Below, piece by piece: positions 8,113 through 17,283 of a stretch of DNA of 34,314 nucleotides. How positions within the stretch are numbered: the first letter of the stretch is position 1; each line of letters starts with the position of its first letter. A model generated the notes under the pieces. It saw only the letters and a list, made by a program, of their open reading frames with translations, made no database searches and had not been told where the DNA came from. The DNA lies in the NCBI GenBank assembly GCA_024401215.1, contig JAKSLL010000036.1, positions 1 to 34,314 of the forward strand. Reading direction: 5' to 3'. The position numbers and the translations under genes were made by a program. The DNA comes from Bacteroidaceae bacterium. GTDB lineage: Bacteria > Bacteroidota > Bacteroidia > Bacteroidales > Bacteroidaceae.

Positions 8113-9624
8113 TTAAAGTGGGAATAATAATGGTGTGATAAACATGTTTGCGGCAAGTATTATCAGATTCATCCAAAAACCTACTTTTACAAAATCGATA
8201 AACTTATAACCTCCTGGCACATACACAAGCATATGTGTTGGAGAACCTATCGGTGTTGCAAAACTTGAACTAACTGACACCATTAGGGCTACAGCAAATG
8301 TAAGTGGGTTCACGCCTAATAAATGAGCAGCAGACATAGCTACAGGGTAGAACATGGCTCCGCAGGCAGTATTGCTGATAAATTCTGTTATGAATGTGCC
8401 AACAAGGCAAATTGTAAGCATAACAACATATGGATTTGTGCCGCATACACTTAGCAATCCGTCGGCTATAACCTGAGCTATGCCTGTTTTCTCTATAGCA
8501 TTTCCAAGAGCAACGCTGCACGCAAAGATTATAACAATCTGCCAATCAATACTTTTGTATGCTTGAGATGAAGAACAGCATCCAATTATCACCATCAGTA
8601 TGGCTGCTATCAATGCACATTGTAAGAGGGGCATGACACCTATTGCTGATAGTGCTACCATTGCAATCATGATAGCTGACGAAATAATGGTTTTCTTGCC
8701 AAGCCCACCTTCTATTTCTATGTCAGCAATAGAGCATTCAAGTCCGTTGCGCTTTGCCGCACTCAAAATATCTTCTCGTGAGCCAGAATATACTAATGTG
8801 TCACCACCAAGTAAGAAATCATCTGGTTGGACATTATTATTTACCTCACCATCAAAACTTATTATTCCAAGTAACCCTTGTGTATAATCTATAGCGCTTA
8901 CAGTCTGTCCGACAAGATGGCTATTAGAAGGGACTCTGAGTTCTATTGTGTTACCTGTGACATTCATCTTTTCCTCTGGGCTCTCACGTACAGGCAGTAA
9001 TTTTTGCATAGCTATCATGCTCACAATTCCTACAGCAAGGCAGAATACTCCAACACCTAACGTAGTGAATATGCTTAATTGTTCACCTGTTTCTTCTGCA
9101 TACAATCCAGAAATAATCAAGTTTGGTGGTGTTCCAATGAGTGTGCATATTCCACCCATGCCACTGGCGTAACTCAAAGGAATAAGAAGTTTGCTTGGTG
9201 CAATGCCTAACTTTCTGCTCCACTCTTTTACAACATTTATGAATAATGCCACAACAGTAGTATTACTCAAGAATGCGCTAAGAAAAGCAACTGGTGCCAT
9301 CACTCTCACGATTGCCCCAGTAAGACTCTTTGGCTGTCCCATCAAATATTTTACTATCCACTTCAAAACTCCTGTGTAGGTCAAGCCAGCAATAACAACA
9401 AACAATACTGCTACAACAATAACACTTGGGCTGCTAAAGCCTGCAAAAACTTCTTTTGCATCGAGCACACCCACTATGAAAAGAATAGAAACAGTAGTTA
9501 TAAATGCTGCCCATGTCTTAATCTTTGTGAATATCAAAGAAAGAAACATAGCAAGTACAAGCAGAACAGTAATCCAAGCTTTGACTTGCATTCCTAATAT
9601 TATTGAATCTAAAAAAGTATCCAT
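8113..9624 (-). CDS. SLC13/DASS-type transporter with one RCK_C domain
   Basis: Inner-membrane permease of the divalent anion:Na+ symporter superfamily. The 503 residues form two inverted repeats, each with the substrate/sodium SNT motif: SAFLSNTTVVALF (Asn121) and TEFISNTACGAMF (Asn418). GTPPNL (164-169) and SFATPIGSPTH are further family blocks. Between the halves, residues about 226-292 form an RCK_C (TrkA-C-like) domain (TIELRVPSNSHLVGQTV to GGDTLVYSG), a probable ligand-sensing regulatory module. The substrate cannot be read from sequence; sulfate, phosphate or dicarboxylates are possible. It follows the SpoIIE phosphatase by 83 bases on the same strand, so it is probably the last gene of the partner-switching operon. 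It is clearly paralogous to the plus-strand transporter at 13028-14776. Confidence 0.85.
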   Translation of the reverse strand: MDTFLDSIILGMQVKAWITVLLVLAMFLSLIFTKIKTWAAFITTVSILFIVGVLDAKEVFAGFSSPSVIVVAVLFVVIAGLTYTGVLKWIVKYLMGQPKSLTGAIVRVMAPVAFLSAFLSNTTVVALFINVVKEWSRKLGIAPSKLLIPLSYASGMGGICTLIGTPPNLIISGLYAEETGEQLSIFTTLGVGVFCLAVGIVSMIAMQKLLPVRESPEEKMNVTGNTIELRVPSNSHLVGQTVSAIDYTQGLLGIISFDGEVNNNVQPDDFLLGGDTLVYSGSREDILSAAKRNGLECSIADIEIEGGLGKKTIISSAIMIAMVALSAIGVMPLLQCALIAAILMVIIGCCSSSQAYKSIDWQIVIIFACSVALGNAIEKTGIAQVIADGLLSVCGTNPYVVMLTICLVGTFITEFISNTACGAMFYPVAMSAAHLLGVNPLTFAVALMVSVSSSFATPIGSPTHMLVYVPGGYKFIDFVKVGFWMNLIILAANMFITPLLFPL

Positions 9625-9707
9625 ATTATCAAATAATAAAATATGTGATTAAAATGTATTCTATAATCGATAGTCTCATTTCTATTTAGTAGAAAATGTC
9701 AGATGGG

Positions 9708-11660
9708 CTACCTGTACCCCATGCATAACACAGTAATGTCGTCGCTTTGTTCGGCTCCTACTGCATGCTTATGCACATCATCTATAAGCATGTTTACTGC
9801 ATCCTCAGCTGAGACATTGGTATCGAATGATGACAGAACATCAAGCAGATGCTGGTCGCCATATAATTCAGATTTAATGTTTTCTGCCTCTGTAATTCCG
9901 TCAGTATAAAGCATGATTTTTACTCCTGGGCGAATATAGAAGCTTATCTCTTTGTATTCAAAACCGTCAATGACGCCAATTGGCAGATTGACAGGCACTT
10001 TCTCCATAAAGTGAACAGTGTTGGAAGGTCCTACTGTTACGGGGGCGTCAGATATGTATTCGCCATTTGTGGCTGGAGCGTTATGACCGCAGTTGCAACA
10101 TGTGAATAATCCTGTTTTAAGGTTGCAGCATCCGATGAACATCGTTACGAACATATTTTCATCATTACCCTGTGCAATAGCATTGTTGAGAAGTGTAGCA
10201 ATCTTTGCTGGTGACTTAGCGTGTGTTACATTATTCCTGAAAAGAGAACGTGTAATCGCCATAAAGAGTGAAGCTGGAACACCTTTACCTGAGACATCAC
10301 CTATGCAAAAGTAGAAGTCATCACCATCAAGAAGGAAATCAAACAAATCTCCGCCAACAGCTTTTGCTGGTATAAGCTTGCCGTAAATATCAATCTCTGT
10401 CCTACCTGGATAAGGCGGGAAGATTTTTGGCACCATTGCCATCTGTATTTTGCGAGCTGTAGACAGTTCTCCTTCAATAAGAGCCTTGCTTTGTGTTGTT
10501 TTTTCAAGTTCCTTAATATAAGTGTTAAGCGAACCTTTCATTGAAGCTAAAGCAGCACGAAGGTCATACAGTTCATTGTGGCTTGTTATGACAGGCAATT
10601 TGACATTGAAATTGCCATGCGATATTTCTCTTGCAGCAAGAGCGAACGTTTCTAAAGGCTTTGAAAGTTTGTTTATTACAACGACACAAACAATGATTGT
10701 AAGGATAATGCCTATCAGCATGATAGCAATAAGGATATTTGTCATGTTAATCAGGCTTGAGGCAACATCTTTATGAGGCACCTCTAATGTGACTGTCCAG
10801 CCTGTCTTTGGCTCTTTAGCATAAAAAACAGCTATTTTCCCTCTTTCTTTATCATCGTAACAGCCGTATCCACGTTCTTGTTTCTGTATCTGAGAATAAA
10901 TGTCTTCATTAGCACCCTCCTTTTGCTTTTCTAATAAAGATTGTATCGATTCATTGAGAATGTAGTCTTGATTTGGGTGAGCAATAAATGTTCCATCAGC
11001 ATCAACAATAGTAAGCATCGCATTAGGGTAGGGCTTAACATCTTGCAATGTCTCATTTATAATATCAAGATTCAAGTCAATAGCCATTACAGCATAGAAG
11101 TTGTTATTAGCATCATACAATGGTACAGTGTATGCTGTGATGATTGTGCCATTAGCTTCTCTAAAAGGTTTTGTCCATACAGCTTCTTTCTTGCTCGCAA
11201 CATTCTTATACCAATCATAACTAGCATAATCTCTGACTAAAGCAATATCACGTCGCATGTAACTTCCATCTTTCATGTGCATGACATAAGGGCAGAAGCC
11301 TTTTTCCTTGTTAGATACCACATTGTGATCAAATCCCACAGCAACACCTTGTACTCGTGGATTAGAAATAAGAAAATGTTCACAAAGTGACATTATTGAG
11401 TCACGGCGGTGAGCAATTAAAGGTGACTTTGATATACCCTGAAGATTTTCTGCCGATACCTCTGTTGCTGTAAGCCCCTCATCAAGGGCTTTGATCACAT
11501 AATCAAGTTTTGCCCATGCTGTTGCATGCACATCATTGCGTACTTCATCAATAACATAATAAAGTACAGCACCGAAGATTATGGAAAAGACAACAATATT
11601 GATGCCTAATAACCAAGCACATAACTTCAGCTTGAATGATTGGCGGAACTTAACTGTCAT
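9708..11660 (-). CDS. Cache-HAMP-SpoIIE serine phosphatase (RsbU/RsbP-like sensor)
   Basis: Membrane PP2C-type phosphatase, expected to remove phosphate from a STAS-domain antagonist in response to an outside signal. Architecture over 650 residues: TM1 (13-37), periplasmic double-Cache sensor (about 40-300, with the DYASYDWYKN/VWTKPF signature at 144-165), TM2 (306-330), HAMP (331-382), short coiled coil with the ARKIQMAMVP linker (402-411), then the SpoIIE domain (420-650). Metal-binding acids are present: GGDLFDF (Asp438, Asp441), GDVSGKG (Asp455), YTDGITEA (Asp587) and QSDDITVL (Asp640/641), so it should be active. It starts 15 bases after the RsbW-like kinase gene. The Cache domain usually binds small organic ligands, which fits the transporter next to it. 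Confidence 0.92.
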   Translation of the reverse strand: MTVKFRQSFKLKLCAWLLGINIVVFSIIFGAVLYYVIDEVRNDVHATAWAKLDYVIKALDEGLTATEVSAENLQGISKSPLIAHRRDSIMSLCEHFLISNPRVQGVAVGFDHNVVSNKEKGFCPYVMHMKDGSYMRRDIALVRDYASYDWYKNVASKKEAVWTKPFREANGTIITAYTVPLYDANNNFYAVMAIDLNLDIINETLQDVKPYPNAMLTIVDADGTFIAHPNQDYILNESIQSLLEKQKEGANEDIYSQIQKQERGYGCYDDKERGKIAVFYAKEPKTGWTVTLEVPHKDVASSLINMTNILIAIMLIGIILTIIVCVVVINKLSKPLETFALAAREISHGNFNVKLPVITSHNELYDLRAALASMKGSLNTYIKELEKTTQSKALIEGELSTARKIQMAMVPKIFPPYPGRTEIDIYGKLIPAKAVGGDLFDFLLDGDDFYFCIGDVSGKGVPASLFMAITRSLFRNNVTHAKSPAKIATLLNNAIAQGNDENMFVTMFIGCCNLKTGLFTCCNCGHNAPATNGEYISDAPVTVGPSNTVHFMEKVPVNLPIGVIDGFEYKEISFYIRPGVKIMLYTDGITEAENIKSELYGDQHLLDVLSSFDTNVSAEDAVNMLIDDVHKHAVGAEQSDDITVLCMGYR

Positions 11661-11675
11661 TAAATTGTGATTTGT

Positions 11676-12089
11676 TTACAGTTTTTTTCGTAGGGTGAGG
11701 ATGTTCTTATTATCTTCACGATTATAGATAACGTCATCCATAATTTGCTTCACGAGGAATATGCCTAACCCTCCAATAGGACGTTCTTCTACACCTAAAG
11801 AAACATCAACATCTGGTGCTTCGTTTGTTGGGTCAAAGGCAACTCCATCATCAATAATTTGGAATGTTAGCATTCCTCCTGCATCTCCGTCGGCTGTGAT
11901 ACTGAAAGAATGTTTCTCTGATTGAGGAAATGCATAATTTATGACATTGGTTGCAATTTCTTCCAGCACAAGATTGATATTGAATGTTAAGGCTGCATCT
12001 TCTTGCAATTCATCGCAAACTTCACTGACAAACCCTTCAAGCAAGGTTAATTCAGAGATGCTATTATTTAAGATTAACTCTTTATGCAT
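11676..12089 (-). CDS. RsbW/SpoIIAB-type ATP-binding serine kinase (partner-switching)
   Basis: A 137-residue GHKL ATPase of the anti-sigma factor kinase family, expected to phosphorylate STAS-domain antagonists and hold an output partner. Visible ATP-site boxes are the N box EEIATNVINYAFP (43-55), the G1 box DDGVAFDP (80-87) and the G2 box IGGLGIFLVKQIMDDV (105-120). The length equals the family norm. Its ATG shares a base with the stop codon of the STAS gene before it (TAATG), so the two are translationally coupled, as in spoIIAA-spoIIAB. No sigma factor follows; the next gene is the SpoIIE phosphatase 15 bases on. The true output partner is therefore unknown. Confidence 0.9.
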   Translation of the reverse strand: MHKELILNNSISELTLLEGFVSEVCDELQEDAALTFNINLVLEEIATNVINYAFPQSEKHSFSITADGDAGGMLTFQIIDDGVAFDPTNEAPDVDVSLGVEERPIGGLGIFLVKQIMDDVIYNREDNKNILTLRKKL

Positions 12090-12391
12090 TATTCAAATTG
12101 AAAAAGAGAAGTGAATCCTGTAATTGTGAATATTTGTTTTATCTCATTGGAGACATTCTTGATAGTTACGCTACCACCTTTTGACATTGTCGCTTTACGG
12201 AGATTAAGGAAAAGGCGGAGTCCTGAACTTGATATAAATTCTAATTCTTTGCAATCGAGCACAATAGTCTTTTCTGCTTGCTGTATAAGTGGAGCAATGT
12301 CATTACTGAATTGTGCTGCGGATGCTGTATCTAAACGTCCTTGTAAAACTGCAACTAATTTATCTCCTTCGTTGTTAATTGTTACTTCCAT
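12089..12391 (-). CDS. STAS-domain anti-sigma factor antagonist-like protein (first copy)
   Basis: A 100-residue single STAS domain like SpoIIAA/RsbV. The conserved phospho-acceptor loop reads LDCKELEFISSSGLR; by alignment with DSSG/DSTG in SpoIIAA/RsbV the modified residue should be Ser55. It is first in the leftward operon and overlaps the kinase gene by one base. A Bacteroidota-type promoter lies about 70 bases upstream. It aligns without gaps along nearly all its length to the STAS protein of the divergent operon (12721-13026), including the FTITGF..LF.FE ending, so the two arose by duplication and may compete for the single kinase. Confidence 0.92.
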   Translation of the reverse strand: MEVTINNEGDKLVAVLQGRLDTASAAQFSNDIAPLIQQAEKTIVLDCKELEFISSSGLRLFLNLRKATMSKGGSVTIKNVSNEIKQIFTITGFTSLFQFE

Positions 12392-12462
12392 AATTTGTTT
12401 TTGCTCAATTTTTTGTATGTTAATTATTTTCTGACATGCATTATAAAATACATTATTATTAC

Positions 12463-12492
12463 AAAATTATATGTTTAAAATCAAATAGCAAA
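12463..12492 (-). promoter_or_regulatory. Promoter of the leftward partner-switching operon
   Basis: On the minus strand TTTG (12492-12489) and TAATTTTG (12470-12463) are 18 bases apart, close to the Bacteroidota TTTG-N19-21-TAnnTTTG consensus. Transcription would start near 12456, giving a leader of about 65 bases before the STAS gene at 12391. Confidence 0.6.
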
Positions 12493-12558
12493 ATAGTAAT
12501 GCAATAATTTAATAAAAATGGTCAATTTAATTTTTATGTATAAAAATATCTGTTATAT

Positions 12559-12590
12559 TTTGTGAGTTATGATATTTTGATTTACCTTTG
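12559..12590 (+). promoter_or_regulatory. Promoter of the rightward STAS-transporter-RSD operon
   Basis: TTTG (12559-12562), 20 bases, then TACCTTTG (12583-12590): the best match in the window to the Bacteroidota consensus TTTG-N19-21-TAnnTTTG. The transcript would start near 12597 and carry a leader of about 124 bases. The leftward promoter is about 70 bases away, so one regulator could control both. Confidence 0.7.
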
Positions 12591-12616
12591 TCAAGTATAA
12601 TCGTGAAAGGTAGCTT

Positions 12617-12700
12617 CAAAATGTTGTATTGATTACATTTTGTCGCTTCCTAATGAAATTTTACTCGCAGTTATAAACTAGTGAGGAGTCATTTATAACT
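12617..12700 (+). promoter_or_regulatory. Structured leader with two perfect stem-loops
   Basis: CAAAATGT (12617-12624) pairs exactly with ACATTTTG (12635-12642) over a 10-base loop. AGTTATAAA (12669-12677) pairs exactly with TTTATAACT (12692-12700) over a 14-base loop that contains GAGGAG. The second stem ends 20 bases before the STAS start codon. The elements may act in the RNA, or as DNA operators. No known riboswitch was recognised. Confidence 0.55.
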
Positions 12701-12720
12701 ATTAAATCCTATAAATTCAA

Positions 12721-13026
12721 ATGGATACAATTATTGACAAAGAAAATGGTGTAATAACAATTGTTATTGATGAACCACTGAATGCACAGCATCTTGATGA
12801 ACTTTCTCAAAGATTCGAGGAATTGCCTTTAGGACTTGGAACAACAGTAGTGCTTGATTGCGAAAAGATGGATTATATCTGTTCAAGTGGTTTGAGAATT
12901 TTCTTGACCATGCAGAAAAAAGCCACTGCCGTCGGAACAAAACTTATTATTCGCAAATTACAGCCTATGGTAATGAACGTATTTACGATAACAGGCTTTA
13001 ATAATCTTTTTGTATTCGAGGATTAA
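12721..13026 (+). CDS. STAS-domain anti-sigma factor antagonist-like protein (second copy)
   Basis: A 101-residue STAS protein, collinear paralogue of the one at 12089-12391. The acceptor loop reads LDCEKMDYICSSGLR, placing the probable phosphorylated serine at Ser55, with Cys54 where SpoIIAA has Asp. It opens the rightward operon, behind a strong promoter and a structured leader. Its TAA stop (13024-13026) is one base before the probable GTG start of the SLC13 transporter, which implies translational coupling. There is no kinase or phosphatase in this operon, so it probably depends on the RsbW-like kinase and SpoIIE phosphatase across the control region. A direct action on the adjoining transporter, by analogy with SulP permeases that carry a fused STAS domain, is a reasonable inference, not shown. 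Confidence 0.9.
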   Translation: MDTIIDKENGVITIVIDEPLNAQHLDELSQRFEELPLGLGTTVVLDCEKMDYICSSGLRIFLTMQKKATAVGTKLIIRKLQPMVMNVFTITGFNNLFVFED

Positions 13027-13027
13027 A

Positions 13028-14776
13028 GTGACCATATTTGCTTGGATTGTTCTTTGCGTATTATTAGCAAAATTTGTTCTGCTTATACGCCATTTATTGC
13101 CTGGAGATGTAATTGCTTTCGGATGTATAGCTATATTGTTGCTTTCAGGTTGTCTTACCACTGAAGAGGCTTTAAGTTGTTTTGGTACTCAGTCGGTTGT
13201 GCTCATTGCTGTAATCTCTATTTTAGTATCTGGAATGATTCATTCTGGTGCAATAAATTGGTTTACATGTCACGTTATGGGAACACCGCGCTCTTTTGTA
13301 GGCTCCATAATTAGGCTTATGATTCCCGTAAGCTTGATGTCTGCCTTCCTCAGTAACACCACATTGGTGGCTATGTTCATCAATGTGGTAAAAATGTGGA
13401 GCAAACGATTAGACATTGCGCCGTCTCGTCTGCTTATCCCTCTTAGTTATGCAGCAAGCATTGGTGGAATGTGTACCATAATAGGAACGCCAGCTAATCT
13501 CGTTATTTCGGGATATTATGAACGGCAAACAGGTCATACGCTCAATTTTTTTGCACCGTTCATACCTGGCTTCATTAGTATGATTGTATGTGTAATCTCA
13601 ATTATCCTCCTTCGTAGGTTGCTTCCAGATAGGAAGAGTCCAGAGGAGAGTTTTGAGAGTAGTGCCGACTATACTGTGGAATTAATTGTACCAGCAGAGA
13701 ATAAAGTGGTGGGTATGACAGTTGAAGAGGCTGGACTGCTTGATGTGCATGGCGGACATCTTGTTGAAATTGTGCGATTTGACCGTGAGATCATTTCCCC
13801 AGTTCCTGCTGATGAGTTTATTCTCGGCAATGATCATCTTGTTTATTCTGGTCAGATAAATAGCATTCTTGAACTTCGTAGTTCTCATGGGTTGGTAAAT
13901 GCAAATAAACTTGTATTCAACACCACTGATTTGGAAAAATCGCGTAAACTCCAAATGGCGACTGTTGACATTTCTTCGCCTCTGATAGGCACAAGAATGT
14001 GTGATATAAACTTTGAATCTCTGCATAATGTTGTTCTTGTAGCCGTAGCACGAGATGGTGAGCGTATGACATCCATACCAAGGGAGATTGCCTTGAGAGC
14101 AGGTGATACACTGCTGCTTGAGGGAGCGCGACTTGTACCTACGAATTTCGTCGGGAATCTCAATTTCTTCGATAATATAGCACTTCCGCAAGTAGATAAG
14201 ACAACATTCATATCTATGTTATTGATGTTTAGCATGATCATCCTTAGTGCTTTGGGTGTTATGCCACTAATTCATAGTGCAATATTAGCTGCTCTCCTGA
14301 TGGTAATCACGCGTTGTTGCTCTATCGAACAATTGCAGCAAAGTATTAACTGGAAGCTTATTATGTCATTTGCTGGCAGCGTCTGTATTGGTGAAGCTAT
14401 TAAAGCAACAGGTTTAGCTCATCAGCTATCAGTGGGATTACAATCTGTAGTAGGCTCTTCACCTCTTGTAATACTTATCATTCTATGTGTCATCTCGACT
14501 TTTATTACAGAGTTTATAAGTAATACGACAGCAGCAGCCATTTTAGCTCCAATAGCTATCACCCTTGCAATGAGTCTTAATGTTGACCCAGCAGTTTTCT
14601 GTGTGGCAGTAATGGTTAATGTGAATAGTTCTTTTGCAACTCCGATGGGTAGCGAGTCTAATTTGATGGTTTATAGCCCTGGCGGATATCGTTTTTCTGA
14701 TTTCATCCGTATAGGTCTTCCGATGAATCTCATTTTGCTTGTTACAAATATAACTGTATGTTATTTCTTAATGTAG
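13028..14776 (+). CDS. SLC13/DASS-type transporter with two RCK_C domains
   Basis: Inner-membrane permease paralogous to the one at 8113-9624, but with a doubled cytoplasmic module. I prefer the GTG at 13028, one base after the STAS stop (582 residues); an in-frame TTG at 13010 overlaps that gene. SNT motifs are SAFLSNTTLVAMF (Asn110) and TEFISNTTAAAIL (Asn499), with GTPANL and SFATPMGSESN as matching family blocks. The two RCK_C domains are at about 216-284 (TVELIVPAENKVVGMTV) and 306-374 (KLQMATVDISSPLIG). Tandem RCK_C domains suggest gating by a nucleotide or ion. The RelA/SpoT-domain gene overlaps or abuts its 3' end, which makes a nucleotide signal an attractive candidate ligand. Substrate unknown. 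Confidence 0.85.
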   Translation: MTIFAWIVLCVLLAKFVLLIRHLLPGDVIAFGCIAILLLSGCLTTEEALSCFGTQSVVLIAVISILVSGMIHSGAINWFTCHVMGTPRSFVGSIIRLMIPVSLMSAFLSNTTLVAMFINVVKMWSKRLDIAPSRLLIPLSYAASIGGMCTIIGTPANLVISGYYERQTGHTLNFFAPFIPGFISMIVCVISIILLRRLLPDRKSPEESFESSADYTVELIVPAENKVVGMTVEEAGLLDVHGGHLVEIVRFDREIISPVPADEFILGNDHLVYSGQINSILELRSSHGLVNANKLVFNTTDLEKSRKLQMATVDISSPLIGTRMCDINFESLHNVVLVAVARDGERMTSIPREIALRAGDTLLLEGARLVPTNFVGNLNFFDNIALPQVDKTTFISMLLMFSMIILSALGVMPLIHSAILAALLMVITRCCSIEQLQQSINWKLIMSFAGSVCIGEAIKATGLAHQLSVGLQSVVGSSPLVILIILCVISTFITEFISNTTAAAILAPIAITLAMSLNVDPAVFCVAVMVNVNSSFATPMGSESNLMVYSPGGYRFSDFIRIGLPMNLILLVTNITVCYFLM

Positions 14777-15663
14777 ATGATATAATGGAACTTATTGATA
14801 TTAAAAATGCTATAGAACAGCAGATTTCTGATGATCTGAATCGGTGTGGTCTTATGTATAGAATCTTTGGACGTGTAAAAACTACACGTTCATTAGAGCA
14901 TAAAATGGCGTGGAAGGGTGATCAATACCGAAATTCTGGAAAGAAAATTCAGGATGTTATAGGTCTTCGTATCGTACTTTACTATCCTGATGATGTTGAA
15001 TTGCTCGGCTTCTTTTTCAGTTGCAAAGATATAGTTGACTCTGCAGTTGATGCACCAGGAGTTGATACTTTTCGTCCTCAAAGACTGAATCTTGTAAAGC
15101 CAATCCCACAGCATCTTGTTGATGAGTTCCGCAAACACCTTCCAGAACAGTATGCTCCGTATATTGATGCTACATACGAAGTACAGATTCGCACTATCTT
15201 TAGTGAGGGATGGCATGAAGTTGAACATGATATGCGATACAAATGCAAGGATGATTGGGAAGGTTATGAGAACTATTCACGTACACTTAATGGCGTAATT
15301 GCAACCCTTGAAACAGCGGAGTGGAGTATGAGTTCAATTTTTCAGCAGATGGCCCGTGTAAATCTGGAGAAAGGGGAGTACCGCTCAATGCTTCGCAACA
15401 AAATGTTTGTAAGAATTGCTGATAATGATTTTTCACCACGCATATATGACTATCTTATCAATCATAAGGAAGTTGCAGAAGCTCTCTTTAATTGTGACAG
15501 AATGGTGTTTCTGATAACTTTATTAAGTCATAAAGGCAACATACCATTGACATACGATAACATTCTTTTCCTTTCAAACCGTTTTGATATGATGTATGAA
15601 GATGTTTTAAGACTTGAAGATGAAGAAACAAAGAGCATCATCGACAAATTCATAAATTCGTAA
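14758..15663 (+). CDS. RelA/SpoT-domain nucleotidyltransferase with altered guanine loop
   Basis: A 301-residue protein with a single RelA/SpoT synthetase-type domain and no HD hydrolase domain. Catalytic blocks are recognisable: R39-V-K41-TTR-S45-LEH-K49 (ATP binding), D66VIGLR71, E141VQIRT146 and W152-HEVEHDMRYK. The G-loop, normally near FGYxSxH, reads F105RPQRLN111: Tyr, Ser and His are replaced by Pro107, Arg109 and Asn111. GTP/GDP binding may therefore differ from that of true (p)ppGpp synthetases. A helical C-terminal extension (about 180-301) has no match I recognise. An in-frame ATG at 14785, nine bases after the transporter stop, may be the real start. The position after an RCK_C transporter suggests an alarmone- or nucleotide-linked control role; toxin activity cannot be excluded. 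Confidence 0.75.
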   Translation: MLFLNVDDIMELIDIKNAIEQQISDDLNRCGLMYRIFGRVKTTRSLEHKMAWKGDQYRNSGKKIQDVIGLRIVLYYPDDVELLGFFFSCKDIVDSAVDAPGVDTFRPQRLNLVKPIPQHLVDEFRKHLPEQYAPYIDATYEVQIRTIFSEGWHEVEHDMRYKCKDDWEGYENYSRTLNGVIATLETAEWSMSSIFQQMARVNLEKGEYRSMLRNKMFVRIADNDFSPRIYDYLINHKEVAEALFNCDRMVFLITLLSHKGNIPLTYDNILFLSNRFDMMYEDVLRLEDEETKSIIDKFINS

Positions 15664-15708: not shown

Positions 15709-17283
15709 ATGACTAACTTAAAATCAATTTTGGCAGGATGTTTTATGACTGCCGTTTCCGTTACATCGTTTGCACAGGATGTACAAATAACTCTTCATCC
15801 TGATAAGGCTGAAAATGTTATCCCTAAAGAAATCTATGGCCAATTTGCTGAGCACCTTGGCCGCTGTATTTATGGCGGTATTTGGGTTGGCAAGGATTCT
15901 GAAATACCTAATGTGGAAGGATATAGGAAGGATGTATTTGATGCCTTGAAAACTCTTGAAGTGCCGGTAATGCGTTGGCCTGGTGGTTGTTTTGCTGATG
16001 AGTATCACTGGATGGATGGTGTTGGGTCGCAGGAGAATCGACCTCGCATGGTGAATAATAATTGGGGAGGTACTGTAGAAGACAACTCATTCGGAACACA
16101 TGAGTTTCTAAACCTTTGCGAACTCCTTGGTTGTGAACCTTACATAAGTGGAAATGTGGGCAGTGGCACACCAGAAGAACTTGCTAAATGGGTTGAATAT
16201 ATGACAAGCAACAGCAATAGCACTATGGCTGAGCTACGAAGAAAGAATGGCAGGGAAAAAGCATGGAAGGTGAAATACCTTGGCGTAGGTAATGAAAGTT
16301 GGGGATGTGGTGGTGATATGTTACCAGAATTTTATAGCGACCTCTATCGTCGATATGCTGTGTATTGTCGCAATTATGGCGATAACAAGCTTTTCAAGAT
16401 TGCATCAGGTGCCAATGCTAACGATTATAATTGGAGCAAAGTGCTTATGAACAAGATAGGCACAGGGCGAATGGATGGTATTTCACTTCATTACTATGCT
16501 GTTCGTGACTGGGGCACAAACCCTGATGGTACAGGGCGCAAAGGCTCTTCATTAGTATTCACAAACAAGGAATTCTATGAAATCCTGTCTAAATCTCTTG
16601 GCATTGAGGATTGTATTAAGGGACATATAAAAGAATTGGATAAGGTTGACCCAAATAAGAAAGTCGGTTTGATGGTTGACGAATGGGGTACGTGGTTCAA
16701 TGTTGAGCCAGGTACGAATCCTGGTTGGCTCTATCAGCAGAATACTATGCGTGATGCAATTGTTGCTTCTACATCATTAGATATTTTCCATAAATATACT
16801 GACCGCATAAAGATGGCCAATATAGCTCAGGTTGTAAATGTACTCCAAGCAATGATTCTTACTAACGAAAAGAATCCTAACGACCAATGCGTGCTTACTC
16901 CTACATATCATGTGTTTAGGATGTATAATGTGCATAAAGAAGCAAAGCATATACCAGGTGAAATCACTTGCGATAAGATTCAAGTAAATGATAGAGAGCA
17001 AGTTCCTACAGTTAGTTTTACTGCAAGCACTAAAAATGGTGTTACAACACTTTCACTTACTAACATTGATCTGGAAAAATCACATGTAGTAGCAGTAAAT
17101 ATTGACGGAAAGAAAGTTGCTGTTGGCGAAAGTGAAATCCTTACAGCAAAGGATGTACATGCGTATAATGATTTCGGTAAAGATAATGTTCACCCATCAC
17201 CATTTAAAGATGCTAAAGTGAAGAATGGACAGCTAATCGTGAATTTGCCAGCTCATAGTATAGTAAATGTTGTTCTGAAATAA
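15709..17283 (+). CDS. Secreted GH51 alpha-L-arabinofuranosidase
   Basis: Removes terminal alpha-L-arabinofuranosyl units from arabinan, arabinoxylan or their oligosaccharides. The 524-residue protein has a signal peptide with cleavage after SFAQ (residue 23), so it acts in the periplasm or outside. GH51 landmarks: [18 protein letters not shown] (42-59), [15 protein letters not shown] (87-101), the acid/base Glu196 in [18 protein letters not shown] (261-267) and the nucleophile Glu325 in [11 protein letters not shown]-terminal beta domain completes the family's fold. It begins 45 bases after the RelA/SpoT gene with no clear promoter between, so read-through is possible. Released arabinose could enter through the symporter and AraA/AraD encoded 10 kb away. 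A terminator follows. Confidence 0.95.

Follow-up and report, generated by a model that had tools for sequence, protein, structure and literature searches.

A partner-switching module linked to SLC13-RCK_C transporters and a RelA/SpoT-domain protein in a Bacteroidaceae bacterium

Organisation of the locus

In this work, we focused on a putative partner-switching locus carried by a Bacteroidaceae bacterium (assembly GCA_024401215.1, contig JAKSLL010000036.1, positions 1 to 34,314 of the forward strand). This whole stretch of 34,314 nucleotides is referred to below as the window. An initial annotation, made from the sequence alone, had described two divergent operons sharing one control region and encoding a kinase, a phosphatase, two STAS proteins, two SLC13 transporters and a RelA/SpoT-domain protein (Rel). 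A check of open reading frames (ORFs) and domains in the window recovered all seven ORFs with these domains. The left arm, on the minus strand, reads STAS1-RsbW-SpoIIE-SLC13a and the right arm, on the plus strand, STAS2-SLC13b-Rel, with the following features:

8113..9624, minus strand: SLC13a, SLC13/DASS-type transporter of 503 amino acids (aa); one RCK_C (TrkA_C) stretch, below the Pfam cut-off; SNT and GTPxN motifs
9708..11660, minus strand: dCache-HAMP-SpoIIE (PPM) phosphatase, 650 aa, assigned from domain scan and acidic active-site motifs
11676..12089, minus strand: RsbW/SpoIIAB-like serine kinase, 137 aa, with N-box Glu/Asn and GGLG
12089..12391, minus strand: STAS1, RsbV/SpoIIAA-like; SSSGL with the conserved Ser; STAS1 clade (15 rows, support 98)
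12392..12720, no strand: divergent control region common to both arms, 329 nucleotides (nt) between them
12462..12492, minus strand: promoter-like match of the left operon, TTTG-N19-TAATTTTG
12559..12590, plus strand: promoter-like match of the right operon, TTTG-N20-TACCTTTG
12721..13026, plus strand: STAS2; CSSGL with the conserved Ser; abuts or overlaps SLC13b; STAS2 clade (13 rows, support 100)
13010..14776, plus strand: SLC13b, SLC13/DASS-type transporter, starting at TTG 13010 or GTG 13028; two RCK_C (TrkA_C) stretches between the membrane halves
14758..15663, plus strand: Rel, RelA_SpoT-domain protein; predicted small alarmone synthetase fold; no GYxSLH motif

STAS1 and RsbW overlap by 1 nt, SLC13b and Rel by 19 nt, RsbW and SpoIIE are 15 nt apart, and the STAS2 and SLC13b frames touch or overlap depending on the SLC13b start. 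The pattern TTTG-N19-21-TAnnTTTG, which we take to be the Bacteroidota primary-promoter consensus, has two strict matches in the 34,314 bases (+12559 and -12492), both lying between the arms, back to back and pointing outward. First-order shuffles of the control region gave 0.025 matches per shuffle, and none of 5000 had one match per strand.

Components of the switch

The kinase matches HATPase_c_2 above cut-off (76.6 bits) and can be aligned to the sequences of solved RsbW and SpoIIAB; it scores far below the cut-offs of the NCBIfam RsbW models (34.2 vs 145 bits). Of 83 aligned RsbW rows, 82 keep the N-box Glu and Asn and one is gapped; the putative phosphosite Ser is kept in all 91 aligned STAS rows, including both STAS proteins of the window, which are single domains of 100-101 aa. 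The phosphatase carries a SpoIIE domain (142 bits) together with Cache and HAMP, and has the acidic active-site motifs; its best NCBIfam match, SiaA, is far below cut-off (60.4 vs 700 bits). The module thus brings together a predicted GHKL kinase, STAS proteins with a phosphorylatable Ser and a predicted PPM/SpoIIE phosphatase, i.e. the set that characterises partner switching. A stressosome was rejected, as there is no RsbR-type sensor-STAS fusion and only a single kinase gene in the module. A label of anti-phage defence was likewise discarded, since the window kinase, phosphatase and Rel had no PADLOC match at E <= 0.01.

Recurrence of the switch-transporter-Rel association

The survey of related loci covered 151 genomes of the family to which the window belongs and a wider sample of 399 genomes. 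Among the 151 genomes, 52 held RsbW (85 places), 63 held SLC13b relatives (E <= 1e-40) and 21 held Rel relatives. RsbW lay within 3 kb of 22 of the 29 close SLC13b genes and of 8 of the 21 Rel genes. It was present in 24/25 genomes with a close SLC13b vs 28/126 others, and in 20/21 genomes with Rel, these being raw counts that ignore genome kinship. Chance adjacency was rejected in view of this proximity (22/29) and of the co-occurrence across genomes (24/25 vs 28/126).

Distant SLC13-RCK paralogues served as a control: none of 42 lay within 3 kb of RsbW, a control weakened by the fact that just 5 of them occur in RsbW-holding genomes. Three genomes (G008, G058 and G069) hold both SLC13 kinds, and there the close SLC13b is found by RsbW and the distant paralogue is not. 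When 20 of the 42 were fetched with their flanks and searched with custom hidden Markov models (HMMs), STAS, RsbW or SpoIIE was detected in none. SLC13b relatives were also collected at phylum level (29 loci, 1.5 kb flanks), with switch genes in 0/29; a tie between the switch and SLC13-RCK transporters in general thus found no support within this distance. In a transporter tree of 70 rows, for which every second phylum-level locus was taken (15/29, seen with 1.5 kb flanks), 35 rows including both window proteins grouped in a single clade (support 100), and a switch gene lies no farther than 5 kb away in 28 of these; none of the 35 rows outside it has a known switch gene. The simplest history suggested by this tree would be one recruitment of the transporter into the switch, followed by several losses.

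The wider sample yielded 68 SLC13b places (58 genomes) and 75 Rel places (74 genomes), of which 52 and 44, respectively, were fetched. A switch gene lay within 5 kb of 41/52 fetched SLC13b and 27/44 fetched Rel genes. The first batches, with STAS, RsbW or SpoIIE within 5 kb of 25/29 SLC13b genes and a switch gene within 5 kb of 11/21 Rel genes, give cleaner counts, because the second batches were selected by score and by how near Rel lies to SLC13. As the HMMs used for labelling derive from these same loci, remote switch genes could have escaped detection. Rel itself lies within 5 kb in 8/51 fetched SLC13b loci. With a limit of 6 kb, SLC13 and Rel occur together in eight loci (hereafter, L numbers denote loci): the window, L096, L212 and L213 with a Rel of the window type, and L214-L217 with a second type. 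Same-strand neighbours within 120 nt of the 44 Rel genes were STAS (10), SLC13 (5), RsbW (2) and SpoIIE (1). Altogether, this comparative evidence supports a recurrent unit made of the predicted partner-switch module and an SLC13-RCK_C transporter, with Rel in part of the loci. The initial annotation is supported in part, its genetic link to transporter and Rel being upheld in this form.

Gene orders and the two STAS proteins

The commonest operon, found in 14 loci, consists of a SpoIIE-RsbW fusion, SLC13 and STAS. Other loci show STAS1-RsbW-STAS2-SLC13b with no recognised SpoIIE gene (L218, L219, L221, L222, L223 and L224), SLC13-STAS-RsbW-Rel (L096) or STAS-Rel-SLC13 (L215). L214 has SpoIIE-RsbW, STAS, Rel and SLC13 in one run, and L216 has STAS-Rel, a kinase-like gene (APH, by eye), an HD_4-type gene, SpoIIE/RsbW and SLC13. 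Among the loci fetched, the exact arrangement of the two operons was not recovered outside the window; the pairs STAS2-SLC13b, SLC13b-Rel, STAS-Rel and RsbW-SLC13b do recur in other genera.

In the STAS tree, the STAS1 and STAS2 clades co-occur in nine loci with SLC13b (the window, L056 and L218-L224). STAS2 adjoins SLC13b in eight of them; in L220 it neighbours RsbW and STAS1 and is some 2.5 kb away from SLC13b. The two-STAS design is therefore inherited, STAS2 being the one placed towards the transporter. It had also been proposed that one STAS and one transporter are paired in each arm, which holds for STAS2 and SLC13b only, STAS1 being separated from SLC13a by RsbW and SpoIIE. STAS-transporter fusions were absent among the annotated fetched SLC13 ORFs.

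The transporters

Both SLC13a and SLC13b match CitMHS and Na_sulph_symp above cut-off and have the SNT motif at two places; the cut-off of the NCBIfam DASS model TIGR00785 is not reached (130.7 and 147 vs 198.6 bits). The distinction between one and two RCK_C domains was borne out by alignment, the second copy of SLC13b being cleanly absent from SLC13a; the single TrkA_C stretch of SLC13a scores 20.5 vs a Pfam cut-off of 27 bits. Seven shorter SLC13 genes were found (six of the one-RCK type and one broken two-RCK copy, L151), and the window gene is the only one of them with STAS within 5 kb. A second SLC13a-type gene of the window's genome (G000:C214:17477-18970, L155) lies in a fetched stretch without switch genes.

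Other transporter types accompany the switch. An AspT-type transporter gene lies beside the SLC13-switch operon in nine loci (L218, L219, L221-L224, L080, L143 and L144), and the AspT-type protein of L080, the one scanned, has two TrkA_C stretches. An NhaP-type transporter occurs in four switch loci (4/5 matches, the fifth in a control locus), with TrkA_C in the one protein scanned. TrkA_C/RCK_C is the sole domain common to the SLC13, AspT and NhaP types in the scanned proteins. Since RCK_C/TrkA_C domains are linked with cyclic di-adenosine monophosphate in the parts of the literature available to us, a nucleotide ligand is possible for the RCK_C domains here.

The Rel enzymes

The structure predicted for the window Rel corresponds to a small alarmone synthetase fold. 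Its R-x-K, D-x-x-G-x-R and E-x-Q core catalytic residues are invariant in 24 aligned Rel rows. Two Rel types, about 20% identical, are found near SLC13b, i.e. the window type and a second one, type B. The GYxS(L/I)H motif, presumably acting on the acceptor side, is kept in type B rows; the window Rel has FRPQRLNLV in its place. In the wider sample, all four window-type Rel genes at least 55% identical (window included) are near SLC13 (within 6 kb). The nearest named matches of Rel come from Prevotella, suggesting a probable kinship of the host with this genus. HD_4-type genes are found together with second-type Rel in many loci (22 matches, 16 in loci with switch genes).

Some more distant relatives have other neighbours. 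In L097 (3930-6053, minus strand) and L118 (7884-9980, plus strand), an NA-iREase2-NACHT gene is directly followed by a window-type Rel (~40% identical), the frames touching or overlapping, and in L232 (6336-8462, plus strand) a close homologue of this gene has the same position before Rel. NACHT-Rel is thus a candidate pair of defence-like make-up, seen in two members of the window's family as well as in a gammaproteobacterial bin. Rel relatives of Lachnospiraceae/Clostridia (L119-L141, e.g. L119:9893-11965) range from 609 to 856 aa, the ORF being split in two in L139; their long C-terminal part lacks a Pfam match in the two scanned, and an rpoD-like gene occurs in 14/23 loci. In the window, an alpha-L-arabinofuranosidase gene (15709-17283, plus strand) starts 45 nt past Rel on the same strand and may be co-transcribed.

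Additional neighbours of the switch genes

In 18 loci (e.g. L064:6747-7778 and L214:14103-15203), the gene directly upstream of SpoIIE and in the same orientation encodes an NMT1-type (NMT1/THI5) periplasmic binding protein, so assigned from a domain scan of one such protein. This gene had no match in 20 control loci, and the window is also without one. This protein is possibly a ligand-delivery partner of the Cache domain. STAS domains fused to an APH-type phosphotransferase occur near RsbW/SpoIIE genes (L070:4664-5875, L075:6598-7797 and L086:10252-11481) and are possibly a further non-sigma output of the switch. In L072, L088, L089 and L161, the surroundings of SpoIIE-RsbW-STAS operons include large ORFs that by eye resemble nonribosomal peptide synthetases, with a condensation-type start.

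Output of the switch and alternative explanations

We lean towards a partner-switching module whose outputs would be the transporter (SLC13b, probably SLC13a) and the alarmone-synthetase-like Rel, under post-translational control, rather than a sigma factor. Several observations weigh against this: the exact seven-gene layout was found in the window alone among fetched loci; 11/52 SLC13b genes (10 intact, 1 broken) and 17/44 fetched Rel genes lack switch genes over a distance of 5 kb; SLC13a-type genes are near RsbW in 1/6 cases; and two Prevotella Rel relatives, 51-53% identical (L116 and L117), lie in fetched stretches without switch or SLC13 genes. A mirror-tree analysis of 32 loci adds to them, with partial correlations of 0.28 for SLC13-RsbW, 0.14 for SLC13-STAS and 0.69 for STAS-RsbW, the STAS value being higher in 16% of subsamples. 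It gives no support to STAS as the specific contact of the transporter and leans weakly to RsbW. The neighbour count favours STAS: among 58 SLC13 genes, STAS is within 5 kb of 40, RsbW being there too in 36, STAS alone in 4 and RsbW alone in 0. In the RsbW and STAS trees alike, rows group according to neighbour type (for SLC13, 14 and 16 changes vs 26 and 31 when shuffled), so these trees cannot tell which protein makes the contact.

The unique layout and the SLC13b genes devoid of switch genes are also what would be seen if the neighbours were functionally unlinked and their grouping a genomic coincidence. We consider this very improbable given the proximity and co-occurrence of RsbW reported above, the overlapping frames, and the persistence of the partners while gene order varies. 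A target of the more ordinary kind deserves more weight, i.e. a sigma factor or regulator encoded in trans and held by RsbW, the transporter and Rel being merely co-transcribed or members of its regulon. Most systems end so in the parts of the STAS review consulted (PMC8256260), as does, in the portion of the source available, the RsbW network of Chlamydia, which acts on the primary sigma factor (PMC4552016). Two long sigma matches (109 and 89 bits) occur in the window's own genome; the SigB/F/G model gave 10 sigma matches there, none over cut-off. A sigma-like ORF was found in 2/82 fetched RsbW stretches, both times more than 2 kb away, some of these stretches overlapping or sharing a genome and the query consisting of seven fragments from the window's own genome. 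A sigma factor target encoded in cis is disfavoured by these searches, and the absence of an adjacent sigma factor, already noted in the initial annotation, stands for the module. Moreover, RsbW is often fused to the membrane Cache-SpoIIE protein, which places it at the membrane, and both operons have primary-type promoter matches. A transcriptional switch acting in trans is, on these grounds, rather unlikely.

It is unlikely, though somewhat less so, that SLC13b works as a co-sensor reporting substrate flux to SpoIIE or STAS, with the true output elsewhere and Rel as the sole local effector. Co-sensor transporters are known for C4-dicarboxylates (DctA/DcuS), which counts for this possibility. 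So do L153, L158 and L160, where SLC13 lacks RsbW/STAS but stands beside a SpoIIE phosphatase (REC-SpoIIE in L153, which was scanned), and the 18/58 SLC13 genes with SpoIIE, alone or RsbW-fused, as same-strand neighbour within 120 nt. It fits poorly with L149, L212, L215 and L229, which have SLC13 and STAS and no RsbW within 5 kb, and it often leaves no local output, because most fetched SLC13b loci have no Rel within 5 kb. Finally, Rel could mainly be an effector of growth arrest or defence (a tRNA or other nucleotide pyrophosphokinase) checked by the switch, and not a (p)ppGpp maker. The missing GYxSLH motif of the window type, the distant members following the NA-iREase2-NACHT gene or its homologue (L097, L118 and L232) and the match of a type B Rel (one scanned) to the PADLOC candidate PDC-S33 point that way; we regard it as quite unlikely as the main role.

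Proposed working

Under post-translational control of transporter and Rel, the periplasmic Cache domain would bind a small molecule and thereby set the activity of the SpoIIE phosphatase. RsbW would phosphorylate STAS1 and STAS2 on the conserved Ser, and SpoIIE would remove the phosphate. STAS2, or RsbW when STAS is phosphorylated, may then dock on the paired cytoplasmic RCK_C domains of SLC13b, thereby gating transport. As Rel would be set by the same switch, anion/carboxylate uptake and an alarmone-type growth signal would change together. Gene position and trees suggest that STAS1 is probably the RsbV-like partner titrating the kinase, with STAS2 facing the output.

A broader proposal can be made tentatively, the balance being against it: partner switching in this Bacteroidota group might be a general, transcription-free control of RCK_C transporters (SLC13, AspT, NhaP) and of alarmone metabolism (Rel, HD_4 hydrolase). 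Dephosphorylated STAS or free RsbW would dock on RCK_C, and one Cache-sensed ligand would set flux (ion/carboxylate) and alarmone level together.

Relation to known systems and implications

The initial annotation knew of no described system with this make-up, and in the open-licence literature we likewise found no description of a partner switch with SLC13, an alarmone synthetase or a transporter, nor of one in Bacteroides/Prevotella. In logic, the closest known system by analogy is SiaABCD of Pseudomonas aeruginosa, where a PP2C phosphatase and a kinase set the phosphorylation of a small protein resembling an anti-sigma antagonist. According to the parts of the sources available, this protein, SiaC, binds and activates the nucleotide second-messenger enzyme SiaD (PMC7647112, PMC8457831). 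SiaABCD differs in having a diguanylate cyclase as output, whereas a RelA/SpoT-domain enzyme and RCK_C transporters are found here; a scan of the seven genes and of two neighbours detected no GGDEF domain. It also has one small protein and no transporter, compared with two STAS proteins here, and the SiaC phosphosite is Thr68, where our proteins have Ser.

The RsbU/V/W-SigB and SpoIIE/AA/AB-SigF systems of Bacillus and the Rsb system of Chlamydia use the same three protein classes but end in a sigma factor, whereas the present module has transporter and Rel genes and no sigma gene. From the portions of the publications consulted, Chlamydia has two RsbV proteins (PMC8256260), and tricarboxylic acid cycle intermediates are reported as ligands of its RsbU (PMC12422730). 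In SLC26/SulP, an anion transporter functions jointly with a STAS domain, as described in the part consulted of the same review (PMC8256260); that transporter belongs to another superfamily and has its STAS fused, while here STAS is separate and accompanied by its own kinase and phosphatase genes. The review covers sigma factors and SLC26 fusions, and the terms diguanylate, ppGpp and Bacteroid- are absent from the part of its text available. As for RelP/RelQ (SAS2/SAS1), the window Rel differs from them by the lack of GYxSLH, its operon with a partner switch and an extra C-terminal helical part, barely covered by the fold comparison.

Comparative support is strong for a known type of switch with what would be new outputs, a transporter and an alarmone-type enzyme. 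In the literature as far as it was accessible, the outputs of described partner switches are sigma factors, other kinds of gene regulation or, in one case, a diguanylate cyclase; a conserved transporter/alarmone version, if true, would widen the known uses of the switch. The loci, which display natural gain, loss and reshuffling of the parts, offer a directly testable system. If confirmed, the proposed control would help to explain the presence of RsbW in 52/151 family genomes despite no SigB/F/G-type factor over cut-off (one genome), would provide a candidate protein partner for the RCK_C domains of SLC13 transporters, and would open a route for outside signals into alarmone metabolism. These findings suggest that bacteria may also use the partner switch for direct control of transport and starvation-type signalling.

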